DNA from: an uncultured Prevotellaceae bacterium
GTDB lineage: Bacteria > Bacteroidota > Bacteroidia > Bacteroidales > Bacteroidaceae
Reading direction: 5' to 3'
DNA length: 64,000 nucleotides
NCBI GenBank assembly: GCA_900315095.1
Contig: OMXS01000011.1
Coordinates: 1 to 64,000 of the forward strand
Both the position numbers and the translations under genes were made by a program. Below, in pieces: positions 14,229 through 54,389 of the stretch. Every line of letters starts with the position of its first letter. Position 1 is the stretch's first letter. The notes below the pieces were generated by a model, which worked only from the letters and a program-made list of their open reading frames with translations, had not been told where the DNA came from and ran no database searches.

Positions 14229-14888
14229 ATGAAACAGGGAAAGAAAATCTGCAAGACTCTCAAAGAGATACGCCTTCAGGTGGCACGTGCGAACGACATA
14301 CCGTACGAGCCAACGGAGTGCAACCACAAGGGCGACTGCCTCGGCACATGCCCCAAGTGTGAGGAGGAGGTGCGCTACATCGAGAATCAGCTGAACATCC
14401 GACGCATGCTGGGCAAGGTGGCCACCGTGGCCGGCGTGGCAATGGGAGTAAGCATGGCCATGCAGCCCGTGGAGGCAATGGCACAGAAGAAAAACTCTGT
14501 CGCCACACCTACAAACACCATCGTTATCGACTCGCTGCGGACATTGAAGGTGAAGAGCCTGCTCAACGAGGGCGAGACGGGAATAGTGGTGAGAGGACGC
14601 ATCATTGACGAAGAAGGCAGTCCAATTATAGGTGCCACCATTCTCCGCAAGGGAACAAATAAAGGCGAGGTGAGCAACCCCGACGGCATGTTCGCCATCG
14701 AGGCTCCCGAGGACTGTACTTTAGAAGTGGCCTACATAGGATATAAGAGCTGTTCTTTCGTTGCCGCCAAAGAGAGCCCGACAGTGGAAATCACTATGGC
14801 AGAAAGCGAAGCCCTTATGGGTGATGTTGTGGTCGTCGGTGCCGTATGCGCAAAAAACACAGACGACGTATATGGTCACGGAAGATAA
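14229..14888 (+). CDS. Cysteine-module protein with carboxypeptidase-regulatory-like domain
   Basis: Residues 1-55 form a module nearly identical in all three neighbouring genes, with Cys8 and a cluster Cys31, Cys37, Cys41, Cys44 (C-x5-C-x3-C-x2-C) in a GDCLGTCPKCEEEVRYIE context. A twin-Arg segment (IRRMLGK, 57-63) leads into a hydrophobic span (64-78) ending near MAQ, so the rest is probably exported. From about 118 there is a CarboxypepD_reg-like beta domain (VVRGRIIDEEGSPIIGATI...) like the N-terminal domain of SusC proteins. The cysteine cluster looks like a metal or Fe-S site and is on the cytoplasmic side by topology. It is the first gene of a set with two TonB-like paralogues and a radical SAM gene. 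Function unknown. Confidence 0.8.
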   Translation: MKQGKKICKTLKEIRLQVARANDIPYEPTECNHKGDCLGTCPKCEEEVRYIENQLNIRRMLGKVATVAGVAMGVSMAMQPVEAMAQKKNSVATPTNTIVIDSLRTLKVKSLLNEGETGIVVRGRIIDEEGSPIIGATILRKGTNKGEVSNPDGMFAIEAPEDCTLEVAYIGYKSCSFVAAKESPTVEITMAESEALMGDVVVVGAVCAKNTDDVYGHGR

Positions 14889-15049: not shown

Positions 15050-15751
15050 ATGAAACGAGGAAAGACAATATGCAAGACACTGAAGGAAATACGCCTTCAG
15101 GTGGCACGTGCCAACGACATACCATACGAGCCAACGAAGTGTAACCACAAGGGCGACTGCCTCGGCACATGCCCCGCATGTGAGGAGGAGGTGCGCTACA
15201 TCGAGCGGCAACTCGACATACGACGCCTGCTGGGCAAGGTGGTGACGGTGGCTGGCATCAGCGCCGGACTTACCGCGCTCACAGCATGCAGTTCTTCCAC
15301 ACGCAATTTCCTGCGCCCTGACGTAAGGGGCAAGATGCCGGCACACGACTATGTTGACTCCACCCTTCAGAAAGAGGGTGAGACAAGTGCAGGGCATAAG
15401 TCGATGGTGGTGAGGACCGACACCATCAGCGAGGAAGTGCTGTTGGGCGAAGTGGTCGAGACACCGCCGGAGTTCCCTGGTGGACCGCAGAAGATGAAGG
15501 AGTTTATAGACAACAATCTCCGCTATCCGGACGAACTGGAGTCTGATGTTCAAGGACGTGTGATAGTGCAGTTCATGATAGAACGCGACGGCACCGTCAG
15601 CAGTCCCGCAGTCGTTGAGTCTCTCCATCCTTTGCTCGACAAGGAGGCGCTGCGCGTAATCAGCCTGATGCCCAAATGGACTCCTGCAAAGGTGGGCGGA
15701 AACATAGTGGAGACGAGATACACCGTCCCTGTAAACTTCAAGTTGAAATAG
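15050..15751 (+). CDS. Cysteine-module lipoprotein with TonB C-terminal domain
   Basis: The N-terminal module matches the previous gene: Cys8, Cys31, Cys37, Cys41, Cys44. It is followed by IRRLLGK (57-63) and a hydrophobic segment ending in LTAC with Cys80, a good lipobox, so the mature part is probably an outer-facing lipoprotein. The last ~95 residues form a TonB-type C-terminal domain: EFPGGPQKMKEFI, LRYP, QGRVIVQFMIERDGTV, DKEALRVISLMPKWTPA, YTVPVNFKLK. No ExbB/ExbD is nearby, so a classical energy-transduction role is doubtful. The next paralogue starts 18 bases downstream. Confidence 0.85.
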   Translation: MKRGKTICKTLKEIRLQVARANDIPYEPTKCNHKGDCLGTCPACEEEVRYIERQLDIRRLLGKVVTVAGISAGLTALTACSSSTRNFLRPDVRGKMPAHDYVDSTLQKEGETSAGHKSMVVRTDTISEEVLLGEVVETPPEFPGGPQKMKEFIDNNLRYPDELESDVQGRVIVQFMIERDGTVSSPAVVESLHPLLDKEALRVISLMPKWTPAKVGGNIVETRYTVPVNFKLK

Positions 15752-15769
15752 TCTTATACATAGTGAACG

Positions 15770-16516
15770 ATGAAGCAAGGAAAGAAAATCTGCAAGACAC
15801 TCAAGGAGATACGCCTTCAGGTGGCACGTGCCAACGACATACCGTACGAGCCAACGGAGTGCAAGCACAAGGGCGACTGCCTCGGCACATGCCCCAAGTG
15901 CGAGGAGGAGGTGCGTTACATCGAGCAGCAACTCGACGTGCGGTGCATGCTCGGCAAGGCCGTCAAGGTGGCTGGCGTGAGCGTAGGCATCGCCGCCCTC
16001 GCCGCATGTCACACACATAAGAACGTGCAGACAGACAATAACGCGCTGCAGGGCGACGTCGTGGCTCCTGAGCCCGACAAGCACAAGCCACAGATAATGG
16101 GAATACCGCCGGCACGGTATGCAAGTCCCGACAAGGAGCAGGACAACTGCAGCGAGCCAAAGTCGATGGTGGTGAGGACCGATACCATCAGCGAGAATGT
16201 AATTTTCGGGGATGTTCCGGAACAGACGGCGTCATTCCCTGGAGGAATACAAAAATTACAGGAATTCATAAATGAGAATATCCAATATACAGATGAGATG
16301 AACCAGACATGCGCCCAGGGACGCGTGGTAGTGCGGTTCGTGATAGAGAAAGACGGCACCGTGACCAGTCCTAAGGTCGTCAAGTCTGTCGACCCCGTGT
16401 TCGACAAAGAGGCTTTACGCATTGTAAGCATCATGCCTAAATGGATGCCGGCAAAGATGAACGGCAAAGCAATACGCACGACATACACCGTTCCTGTTAA
16501 TTTCAGATTGAAATAG
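15770..16516 (+). CDS. Cysteine-module lipoprotein with TonB C-terminal domain, second copy
   Basis: Same architecture as the gene before it: shared N-terminal module with the five Cys residues, hydrophobic segment with lipobox LAAC (Cys80), then a variable linker and the TonB C-terminal domain (ASFPGGIQKLQEFI through TVPVNFRLK). It differs at the twin-Arg position, where the second Arg is Cys (VRCMLGK, residues 57-63). The first ~55 codons are almost identical in DNA to the two upstream genes, while the C-terminal domains have diverged, which suggests recent duplication or gene conversion of the module. The radical SAM gene starts 4 bases after its stop. Confidence 0.85.
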   Translation: MKQGKKICKTLKEIRLQVARANDIPYEPTECKHKGDCLGTCPKCEEEVRYIEQQLDVRCMLGKAVKVAGVSVGIAALAACHTHKNVQTDNNALQGDVVAPEPDKHKPQIMGIPPARYASPDKEQDNCSEPKSMVVRTDTISENVIFGDVPEQTASFPGGIQKLQEFINENIQYTDEMNQTCAQGRVVVRFVIEKDGTVTSPKVVKSVDPVFDKEALRIVSIMPKWMPAKMNGKAIRTTYTVPVNFRLK

Positions 16517-17391: not shown

Positions 17392-17472
17392 ATGACAATT
17401 ATCAGTTTATTTGGAGCTTTGGCAGTAGTAGTACTCGTAGTAGCAGCACACTTCGGTCTCACTGCAAAATAA
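17392..17472 (+). CDS. Small hydrophobic peptide (26 residues)
   Basis: ATG frame MTIISLFGALAVVVLVVAAH then FGLTAK, preceded by AAAGAAAGGATAAAG. Almost the whole product is one membrane span. It has its own promoter upstream (17304-17312), a structured stretch after its stop (a hairpin around 17482-17517) and a strong terminator at 17559-17598, so it is a discrete transcript of about 290 bases. I do not recognise the family. It could be a small membrane regulator or a type I toxin-like peptide; no antisense RNA promoter was identified. Confidence 0.55.
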   Translation: MTIISLFGALAVVVLVVAAHFGLTAK

Positions 17473-17558: not shown

Positions 17559-17598
17559 CGGGCGCCCAGTGTTCACACATTGCGGTGCCCGTTTTTTT
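17559..17598 (+). terminator. Intrinsic terminator of the small peptide gene
   Basis: CGGGCGCC (from 17559) pairs with GGTGCCCG (ending 17591), with one G-T pair, followed by seven T. Confidence 0.85.
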
Positions 17599-17704
17599 AT
17601 ATACTATGGTAATATCACGGTCATGACATAATATAAAATTGCTATTTTAATTTCGCGAAGAGTAAAAAAAATGCGAGAATTGTTCGTTTAATTAAAAAAA
17701 ATTG

Positions 17705-17713
17705 TACCTTTGC
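17705..17713 (+). promoter_or_regulatory. -7 promoter box for corA
   Basis: TACCTTTGC. The predicted start near 17717 leaves a 5' leader of about 175 bases, unusually long for this window. The leader first holds a 7-bp hairpin (17724-17730 with 17752-17758). Confidence 0.65.
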
Positions 17714-17785
17714 AGCGATAATTTTGCATATACCTTAATTTATATACGGTCTATGCAAGCAGTATTAATCTAACGAAACAACAGT

Positions 17786-17827
17786 ATGGACGACTACCCG
17801 GCGGAAAACAACGAGAACTTATCGTAG
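17786..17827 (+). CDS. Leader peptide upstream of corA (13 residues)
   Basis: ATG frame reading MDDYPAENNENLS and stopping at 17825-17827. It is acidic with an early Pro, the composition known from the E. coli mgtA leader MgtL, whose acidic/proline-rich start destabilises ribosomes when magnesium is low. The stop lies 4 bases before the first arm of the RNA switch described next. The functional link is inference. Confidence 0.5.
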   Translation: MDDYPAENNENLS

Positions 17828-17830
17828 GCA

Positions 17831-17892
17831 GAGGATTACCACTTCCGCAGGGCTAATCCTTCGCCACAGGAATCATAGAAGGATTAGAAAAC
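17831..17892 (+). promoter_or_regulatory. Two mutually exclusive hairpins in the corA leader (candidate translational switch)
   Basis: Arm 1 GAGGATTA (17831-17838) can pair with arm 2 (17854-17861) through 8 bp including one G-T. Arm 2 CTAATCCTT (17853-17861) can instead pair perfectly over 9 bp with arm 3 AAGGATTAG (17879-17887). Arm 3 ends 5 bases before the corA ATG and contains the only purine-rich ribosome-binding candidate (AAGGA). Thus 2:3 pairing should hide the initiation region and 1:2 pairing should free it. The leader peptide ends just before arm 1, so ribosome progress could decide the fold. Confidence 0.6.
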
Positions 17893-18819
17893 ATGAAGAA
17901 ATACTGGAACACTACCGGTTGCCTGAAGCAATTGACTGAATGGCAGCCAAACTGTTGGATACAGGTGACGTGTCCGACAGACGACGACCAGCGCGAGCTG
18001 GAGGAGAGATTTGGAATACCCGACTATTTCATCAGTGACATCAGCGATACCGACGAGCGTGCGCGTTATGAGTACGACGACGGATGGATGCTCATCATCT
18101 TGCGTATACCGTACGTCAAGGAGGTGCGCTCTCGCACGCCGTACACCACCGTGCCACTGGGTATAATACACAAGCGCGACGTGACGATAACCGTTTGTTT
18201 CTATGAAACCAATATGATGCTCGACTTCCTTAGCTTCCATCAGAAGCGCGGCGTGGGCTTCACCGACTATGTGGACATGATTTTCAGATTGTTCCTCTCC
18301 TCGGCAGTATGGTATCTGAAACGACTGAAACAGATAAACACCATCATAGAGAAGGCAAAACGCGACCTCGACAAGGGCGTGAACAACGAGTCGCTGATAG
18401 GACTGAGCCGACTGCAGGACTCGCTGACATATTTCATCACCTCTATCCGAGGCAACGAGAATTTGCTGCAGAAACTGAAGTTCAAGCTGCAGGTGGACGA
18501 GCTCGACGCCGACCTCATCGAGGACGTGAGCATTGAGATGAGCCAGGCACGAGAACTGACGAACATCTACTCCGACATTCTAGAATCTACGATGGACACT
18601 TACTCGAGCATCATCAACAATAACATGAACACCGTGATGCGTACGCTCACCGTGGTTACCATCGTTATGATGTTCCCAACGCTCGTGGCGTCGCTCTTCG
18701 GAATGAACCTCGTAAACGGCATGGAGACAAGCCCCTTCGGCTTCGCCATAGCACTCATCATTTCTGTGCTCGTTTCCTTTGGTTCGTGGGCGGTTTTGCG
18801 CTGGAAAAGGCTTGTTTAA
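17893..18819 (+). CDS. corA: CorA-family magnesium transporter
   Basis: Inner-membrane divalent cation channel. The long cytoplasmic N-terminal domain (about 1-250, alpha/beta then a long helical region) is followed by two membrane spans. The signature GMN is at residues 270-272 (LFGMNLVNGME) at the end of the first span. At 308 residues it has normal length for the family. It stands alone between its own promoter and a terminator (18822-18851), with the unusual leader peptide and alternative hairpins upstream. Magnesium is the usual substrate; cobalt or nickel transport is possible in the family. Confidence 0.95.
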   Translation: MKKYWNTTGCLKQLTEWQPNCWIQVTCPTDDDQRELEERFGIPDYFISDISDTDERARYEYDDGWMLIILRIPYVKEVRSRTPYTTVPLGIIHKRDVTITVCFYETNMMLDFLSFHQKRGVGFTDYVDMIFRLFLSSAVWYLKRLKQINTIIEKAKRDLDKGVNNESLIGLSRLQDSLTYFITSIRGNENLLQKLKFKLQVDELDADLIEDVSIEMSQARELTNIYSDILESTMDTYSSIINNNMNTVMRTLTVVTIVMMFPTLVASLFGMNLVNGMETSPFGFAIALIISVLVSFGSWAVLRWKRLV

Positions 18820-54329: not shown

Positions 54330-54389
54330 TGTAATCTTGCATTATTACATACCTACTCTTCTAAGGATTTTCGGCTTACTCCTTTCTGT

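Follow-up and report, generated by a model that had tools for sequence, protein, structure and literature searches.

An acidic leader peptide and competing hairpins suggest translational attenuation of corA in Prevotella and its relatives

The window analyzed here is a 64,000-nucleotide stretch of DNA from an uncultured Prevotellaceae bacterium. It contains a corA gene preceded, in its own leader, by a short upstream open reading frame (uORF) and by RNA arms with alternative pairing partners. The features of this locus are as follows, with the evidence for each in brackets.

17680-17682, + strand: TTG, a possible -33 element (sequence)
17705..17712, + strand: promoter box TACCTTTG, which we take to be of the Bacteroidetes -7 type (sequence)
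17786..17827, + strand: leader uORF MDDYPAENNENLS, 13 codons, with stop codon TAG at 17825-17827 (sequence, conservation)
17797..17806, + strand: arm 0 CCCGGCGGAA, uORF codons 4-7; partner 17843-17852, competing with hairpin 1:2 (MFE fold)
17827..17838, + strand: arm 1, GGC.GAGGATTA, whose first base is the last base of the stop codon (pairing, covariation)
17853..17865, + strand: arm 2 CTAATCCTTCGCC, partner of arm 1 or arm 3 (pairing, covariation)
17878..17887, + strand: arm 3 GAAGGATTAG, 5 nt upstream of the corA ATG, sequestered by arm 2 (RNAalifold, covariation)
17893..18819, + strand: corA, magnesium transporter, 308 aa (PF01544; GMN motif in the translation)

The encoded protein matches PF01544 with an E-value of 2.9e-46; the genome, which is 99.98% complete, contains no other CorA match. 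It also has no MgtE match, and the MgtA model hits it twice, at 308 and 38 bits, in both cases below the curated cut-off of 610.75. The closest named record, at 94% by CorA, is Prevotella koreensis, although records very near the window's genome were possibly excluded; the genus, order and class names used here derive from that record and from general knowledge.

Transcription likely starts near 17720, upstream of the uORF, to judge from the promoter box. In 128 of 134 non-redundant loci a TAnnTTTG box is found no more than 110 nt before the uORF; only three of the 134 have one between the uORF and corA. An initial annotation of this DNA had proposed a leader-peptide switch, to be given up if transcription began downstream of 17831; as far as the sequence tells, the promoter box lies upstream of the whole frame.

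Every element of that proposal (the 13-codon frame, three arms and corA) is present, with some dimensions to be corrected. The core of hairpin 1:2 indeed comprises 8 bp, formed by 17831-17838 (GAGGATTA) and 17854-17861 and including one G-U pair, and it begins 3 rather than 4 bases after the stop codon. Beyond one mismatch the stem continues with three pairs (GGC at 17827-17829 with GCC at 17863-17865), so that arm 1 takes in the final base of the stop codon. Hairpin 2:3 is perfect, as annotated, and is 10 bp long rather than 9 (17853-17862 with 17878-17887). It is followed by 5 bases, again as annotated, before the corA ATG at 17893. Only one of 200 dinucleotide shuffles matches or exceeds the stability predicted for 17740-17920 (z -2.76). 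The MFE structure of this region combines hairpin 2:3 with a stem between 17797-17806, inside the uORF, and 17843-17852; because this stem excludes hairpin 1:2, the latter is absent from the MFE structure.

To be counted as a uORF, a frame had to be closed, start with MD[DE], span at most 25 codons and end at least 20 nt before corA, all within a 330-nt search interval. The genus search matched CorA in 177 of 201 genomes, from which 30 loci were taken, plus the best 80 named matches. For the family, order and phylum, each search usually contributed its 30 best-scoring loci, and further stretches were chosen from the listings. Of 238 loci fetched, 234 gave a CorA match; the four dropped were L219, L236, L237 and L238, the first of which nonetheless shows MDDYYPENFNH. 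When the 200 nt immediately upstream of corA are compared, 216 of the 234 are distinct.

The uORF is present in all 102 distinct close loci (CorA identity of at least 81%), which bears out the conservation of the short frame that the initial annotation had asked for. These comprise 39 loci from genus genomes and 63 named records placed by CorA identity, some of them titled Hoylesella, Segatella or Xylanibacter. The frame is also found in 46 of 56 distinct loci fetched from other genera of the family and in 22 of 29 that belong to further families within the order. In the phylum sample it occurs in seven of 29 loci, all seven from one listed genus (g166) of the same class. Among the misses are a leader cut by a contig end (L210, 118 nt present), one with a longer MDDSLPP frame (L154), and L168 (MDGVPDNLENNPA). 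By comparison, control windows of equal size from the same loci contain a frame of this description in only 10 of 3,092 cases. Likewise, it precedes none of 20 CorA paralogs drawn from weak matches of the family and order searches (stretches of 431-471 nt, in which the exact paralog starts are approximate).

A class-level sample adds L266 MDDYYPKNLIITE, L274 MDDYPADGNQRVKP and L267 MEDYYPKNIIVSE, the last of which (MEDYY...) carries Glu at codon 2 and was missed by the search pattern. The raw count for that sample, 11 of 23, was rejected as inflated because in seven of the 11 the frame is cut by the search window and continues into corA; a further two, L264 and L265, had already been counted. 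Separately, in the class-level loci L280, L281, L282, L284, L287, L289 and L290 the corA start reads ATGGACGATGAT... and an out-of-frame MDDD overlaps it. Across 177 loci the distance from uORF to corA is 78-253 nt and that from uORF stop to corA start 43 to 209 nt. Frame length ranges from 8 to 25 codons and the frame is closed throughout, where closure and the upper length limit are themselves search criteria. Re-initiation or coupling from the uORF to corA was rejected as an explanation on the basis of this variable stop-to-start distance.

In the genomes searched, the element is tied to corA. A 20-base pattern representing the start of the uORF occurs in 74 of 121 genus genomes and never twice in one genome, while its reversed control gives zero matches in the same 121. 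In all 68 genomes that could be checked the match lies 95-203 nt upstream of corA, a corA position being lacking for the other six. We also built a covariance model, R1, from 56 such leaders; its filters lose weak matches. R1 matched 53 of 61 genus genomes at E-values up to 1, with 72 matches listed. Strong matches (E at most 1.1e-6) occur once each in 51 of the 61 genomes, and most of these are to be expected because the model was built from such leaders. Seven of these 51 have no listed corA position; of the others, 43 run up to the start of corA and one (G022) stops 29 nt short of it. The 21 weaker matches have E-values of at least 0.001. In the four of these that were read there is no CorA nearby and they are not corA leaders; two weak matches, L259 and L260, look like coding sequence. 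Within what was searched, the distribution thus indicates a real element that is bound to one CorA lineage.

Conservation of the peptide is concentrated at its N-terminus. In the 134 non-redundant loci residues 2 and 3 are acidic by search criterion, and residue 4, which lies outside the search pattern, is Tyr in 112. Residue 5 is Pro in 65 loci and His in 47, residue 6 is Ala in 94, and residue 7 is Glu or Asp in 93, through four different codons. In 125 of the 134, D, E or P account for three or more of residues 1-7, and Pro is among these residues in 84. Glu replaces Asp at codon 3 in four loci. The positional entropy is 0-1.0 bits for residues 2-4 (of which 2 and 3 are fixed by the search pattern and 4 is not) and rises to 3.1-3.9 bits for the last six residues, among which a conserved C-terminal arrest sequence is absent in the 134 loci. 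All three stop codons are used (TAA 62, TAG 51, TGA 21). Because the N-terminus is conserved and the C-terminus variable, an early translation event, such as abortion or pausing, is favored.

Synonymous sites are constrained as well. Codon 2 is GAC in 133 of 134 loci, and codon 6 is GCG in 93 of the 94 loci with Ala at this position. Part of the conservation of the uORF therefore resides at the RNA or codon level, and the peptide alone is no explanation for the near-fixed codons 2 and 6.

The competing hairpins were examined in an alignment, A1, of 56 close leaders with at most 122 nt between uORF and corA, thinned at 93% likeness and aligned by sequence only. RNAalifold finds hairpin 2:3 de novo in A1, with double changes in eight of nine pairs. 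In this alignment 88.9% of the cells of hairpin 2:3 are paired, a value that falls to at most 52% when the pairing is slid by one column. It contains 54 double-change cells, in 9 of 10 pairs, compared with 14.8 in shuffles (0 of 500 as high). Hairpin 1:2 is not proposed by RNAalifold on A1. Its cells are 68.5% paired and hold 60 double changes versus 44.7 in shuffles (6 of 500 as high), on an alignment in which arm 1 is poorly placed. Two other measures for 1:2 do not rise above the shuffles, namely how many pairs contain a double change (210 of 500 shuffles) and how many further pair types occur (80 of 500). Covariation of the arms, also proposed as a check in the initial annotation, is thus strong for 2:3 and moderate for 1:2. 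Apart from the uORF start, A1 shows no prominent motif that is both conserved and unpaired.

An alignment-free test used 131 leaders less than 85% alike, drawn from 177 of which a length filter had retained 174. The arm-1 region pairs with its own arm 2 at -15.7 kcal/mol on average, compared with -11.2 kcal/mol for the arm 2 of other species; arm 3 pairs with its own leader at -14.8, compared with -10.2 for those of other species. For either helix, the fit to the own partner was reached by none of 10,000 permutations. The two alternatives are near balance, with 1:2 being the better duplex in 73 of the 131. When strict, unbulged arms were demanded (5 of 177 leaders being excluded by length), both hairpins sharing arm 2 were found in 98 of 172 leaders versus 12.6% of shuffles, and 79 leaders beat all 20 of their own shuffles, compared with an expected 8. 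Among the 98 resolved loci, most have 0-9 nt separating the end of hairpin 2:3 from the corA start, and in most arm 1 begins at most 12 nt from the first base of the stop codon. Distant genera have unrelated arm sequences and retain the pairing, as exemplified by GTTCTGTTCTTTG with CAAAGAACAGAAC in L224. Taken with the conservation of the frame, these comparisons indicate that the frame and the competing helices are both under selection. In several close leaders (L058, L090, L070, L023 and others) short repeats such as CTCGTACCACGTACCTCGTACC or TCAATTGTCAATTATCAATTG make up the region between arms 2 and 3, the length of which therefore varies while the arms persist.

A fourth arm may lie inside the uORF. 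Codons 4-9 pair with the arm-1 region of their own leader at a mean of -8.07 kcal/mol versus -7.48 for permuted partners (0 of 5,000 permutations as low; 129 loci), a small gain and weaker evidence because relatedness among the loci was uncontrolled. For the 72 close loci the corresponding values are -10.12 and -8.86. Pairing of codons 4-9 with arm 2 and its flank is no better than permuted (513 and 759 of 5,000 as low). His-type frames contain CACGC. Its complement, GCGTG, is present in the arm-1 region in 10 of the 27 close loci with His-type leaders and in none of the 45 with Pro-type leaders. Pairing between arm 0 and the arm-1 region may thus explain the fixed CCGGCG or CACGCG codons.

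The consequences of ribosome position were explored by imposing a 30-nt footprint on each of the 131 leaders and computing the openness of the corA start. These folds represent equilibrium and ignore the earlier formation of 1:2 during transcription. Mean openness is 0.398 for the free leader, 0.440-0.449 with codons 1-6 in the P site (0.444 at codon 3), and 0.358 with the last codon there. The end of the uORF is the minimum of the scan, with openness reaching 0.48 and more further downstream. Shuffled leaders give 0.468 free, 0.487 early and 0.480 late, and their own small early opening has a p value of 0.019. The difference between early and late positions is 0.085 for real leaders, compared with 0.007 for shuffled ones (p 1.8e-7); early exceeds late by more than 0.02 in 76 of 131 loci, with the reverse in 19. 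These predicted effects are modest averages. The leader in the window, whose ribosome-free fold is already 2:3, gives 0.466 free, 0.617 early and 0.466 late. Early ribosomes are thus predicted to open its corA start, and late ones would add no closure beyond the free state.

Among known systems, the sequence features of this leader most closely resemble those of Salmonella mgtQ, with mgtL and corL less close. As described in PMC8092293, mgtQ is 8 codons long and carries Asp2, Pro4 and Glu5. Replacement of both acidic residues by Ala raises mgtQ translation and lowers that of mgtB, and these residues are reported to be required for making the transporter in low Mg2+. Stem-loops 1:2 and 3:4 compete with 2:3, and the Pro codon matters by pairing, not by encoding proline. 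The authors state there that destabilization of the ribosome by the acidic residues was not demonstrated (PMC8092293). The likeness to mgtQ as so described extends to a very short uORF with acidic residues near its N-terminus, a Mg2+ transporter gene downstream, a probable translational output, and predicted competing stem-loops of which the last lies over the transporter start. In mgtQ the codons of the uORF itself supply the first arm, and codons 4-9 of the present uORF may do so as well. The corA leader accordingly shares with mgtQ-like leaders a short, acidic-start uORF upstream of a Mg2+ transporter gene, and its predicted competing stem-loops, one of them positioned to occlude the corA start, are likewise those of that class. 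There are also differences. The two systems belong to different phyla; the downstream gene is corA here and mgtB in mgtQ; the uORF lies in a 5' leader here, whereas mgtQ lies inside an operon; the acidic pair occupies codons 2-3, unlike in mgtQ; and mgtQ has a strong Shine-Dalgarno sequence, AGGAGG, whereas none is seen ahead of the window's uORF, whose ATG is preceded by AACAACAGT.

Control of corA by a leader peptide is not new, as corL is described in E. coli and Salmonella (PMC11552253). In E. coli, translation of corL runs inversely to expression of corA, and Rho is involved. The present leader resembles corL in having a short uORF in the corA 5' leader, a predicted inverse relationship between its translation and corA expression, and two mutually exclusive predicted RNA structures. 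However, corL acts through Rho-dependent transcription termination, starts with UUG in E. coli, has a different RNA architecture, and encodes fewer acidic or Pro residues (PMC11552253). The mgtL leader of mgtA in E. coli and Salmonella, compared here by its description in the same source, shares prolines and acidic residues, the inefficient translation of which in mgtL at low Mg2+ raises transporter expression, but it is Rho-dependent, folds differently and serves MgtA (PMC11552253). The initial annotation had suggested an MgtL-like logic. Control by a leader peptide is strongly supported, whereas the closest experimental parallel is Salmonella mgtQ, since mgtL acts via Rho-dependent termination.

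In attenuators of the erm and trp types, leader translation chooses between competing stems, which requires ribosomes to stall at a particular codon close to arm 1 and depends on a conserved peptide end or regulatory codons. Arrest-peptide attenuators of the erm, SecM and TnaC type carry a conserved C-terminal arrest sequence. The peptide end is variable here. Accordingly, where the initial annotation had allowed for stalling or drop-off on the leader, early abortion or pausing fits better, and stalling at the peptide end fits less well, as conservation is strongest at MDD.

Searches of an open-access library brought up no description of this leader element in Bacteroidia. A paper on a uORF tool, PMC10219788, does not mention corA; text matches to corA in PMC8040213 and PMC7324362 include the surname Coray, and none of them discusses the gene. 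A Bacteroides thetaiotaomicron transcriptome study reports sORFs in long 5' UTRs, with corA unmentioned in its main text (PMC7366714). In Mycobacterium tuberculosis an M-box riboswitch controls a uORF, according to a 2026 report (PMC12810186). In the literature consulted for comparison, leader-peptide control of corA has been shown in enterobacteria only.

The leader very likely functions as a translational attenuator; conservation, covariation and genomic specificity lend strong support to the switch on corA that the initial annotation had proposed. More specifically, we think it probable that this cis-acting element of the corA 5' leader responds to abortion or pausing at the acidic start, such that low Mg2+ turns corA on. 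When Mg2+ is ample, ribosomes would finish the leader and cover arm 1 at the stop codon, whereupon arm 2 would pair with arm 3 and corA translation would be low. In low Mg2+, ribosomes would pause or fall off after the acidic MDD by intrinsic ribosome destabilization, on codons 1-8. Such early ribosomes would prevent arm 0 from pairing without advancing as far as arm 1; 1:2 could then form, arm 3 would be free and CorA would be made. The signal would thus be the stability of the ribosome on an acidic nascent N-terminus, and the output a magnesium importer. The model needs repeated early ribosomes.

Intrinsic ribosome destabilization by acidic nascent chains is a subject of PMC9718836. Mg2+ sensing by early abortion on the acidic start is the best-supported candidate mechanism for the corA leader, with the sensing step resting on analogy to mgtQ, mgtL and corL and on the conserved acidic N-terminus. 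The Mg2+ response, translation of the uORF and an effect of the acidic residues are our inferences. In addition, Bacteroidia ribosomes fail to recognize Shine-Dalgarno sequences (PMC9976891), and arm 3 may for this reason act by structure and not as an RBS.

Other readings of the same leader must be weighed against translational attenuation by Mg2+. The uORF and arms could have a transcriptional output, leader translation exposing or hiding a Rho loading site as in mgtL and corL. Both of these precedents work through Rho (PMC11552253), and the distances between uORF and corA noted above (78-253 nt in 177 loci) leave room for such a site; the location of hairpin 2:3 directly before the corA start is nonetheless suited to translational control, and we consider a Rho-based output unlikely. 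An intrinsic terminator is also unlikely, because runs of six or more T between the uORF stop and arm 3 occur in only 10 of 134 loci. It is improbable that the leader senses a cue other than Mg2+, such as charged tRNA-Asp, an EF-P or proline delay, translation stress, or a ribosome-targeting compound. Two consecutive Asp codons that are near invariant, and the Pro found among the first seven residues of 84 of 134 peptides, would suit such a cue. A classical tRNA attenuator, though, requires a stall beside arm 1, from which codons 2-3 are too distant; Glu at codon 3 (4 of 134) and at codon 2 (L267) is incompatible with a strict tRNA-Asp sensor; and codon 5 alternates between Pro and His. A tRNA-Asp attenuator is therefore disfavored by the position of the Asp codons and by the Glu substitutions.

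A switch made of RNA alone, either a metal-binding riboswitch or a thermosensor, with an incidental frame, would account for the ATGGACGA letters, which do not vary among the 56 aligned leaders, and for the constrained third positions. It is a very improbable reading, since acidic residues are preserved through different codons, the frame stays closed at lengths varying from 8 to 25 codons with arm 1 near the stop in most of the 98 resolved loci, and A1 offers no conspicuous unpaired motif beyond the uORF start. A search of the whole window with Rfam at gathering scores gives nothing in the leader, and a search of 17600-17960 at E-values up to 10 gives three matches far below gathering scores, the best with an E-value of 6.9. 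With no worthwhile match in this region, the leader is neither an M-box nor a Mg_sensor, which we take to be the Rfam names of those families. Elsewhere in the window, at 54350-54384 (- strand), Rfam places a DUF805b RNA (RF02914; 46.6 bits), listed as a cis-regulatory RNA. Finally, short frames and hairpins are common, but a chance frame beside chance hairpins is refuted by conservation and has a vanishingly small probability, given 102 of 102 close loci versus 10 of 3,092 control windows, 0 of 20 paralogs, and 0 of 10,000 permutations.

Translational attenuation by Mg2+ would have implications beyond this locus. We see an even balance for and against the broader proposal that ribosome, acidic leader peptide and four-arm RNA together form a sensor present across the order, which we infer to be Bacteroidales, and in part of the class, with an origin independent of the enterobacterial mgtQ, mgtL and corL leaders. 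If this is true, acidic nascent N-termini would be a recurrent bacterial means of metering Mg2+, also in ribosomes that do not use Shine-Dalgarno pairing, and RNA pairing, instead of the peptide, would in part determine whether codon 5 encodes Pro or His. A conserved version in an order with many dominant gut bacteria would make destabilization of the ribosome by acidic chains a more general principle of Mg2+ sensing. The 134 non-redundant variants would provide a natural test bed. The element would also bear on the control of Mg2+ uptake in a genome such as that of the window, with one CorA, no MgtE match, and MgtA matches below the cut-off.

Two further observations concern the DNA upstream of the leader. 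Beside it, at 17392-17472 (+ strand), lies a 26-codon frame, MTIISLFGALAVVVLVVAAHFGLTAK, a possible small membrane peptide that is accompanied by a terminator-like hairpin and T run near 17560-17598. Relatives of this frame are absent from the other fetched loci and appear only in loci of the window's own genome. Farther upstream, three adjacent paralogous frames (14229-14888, 15050-15751 and 15770-16516, all on the + strand) have a common N-terminus, MK.GK.ICKTLKEIRLQVARANDIPYEPT, and differing C-terminal parts.
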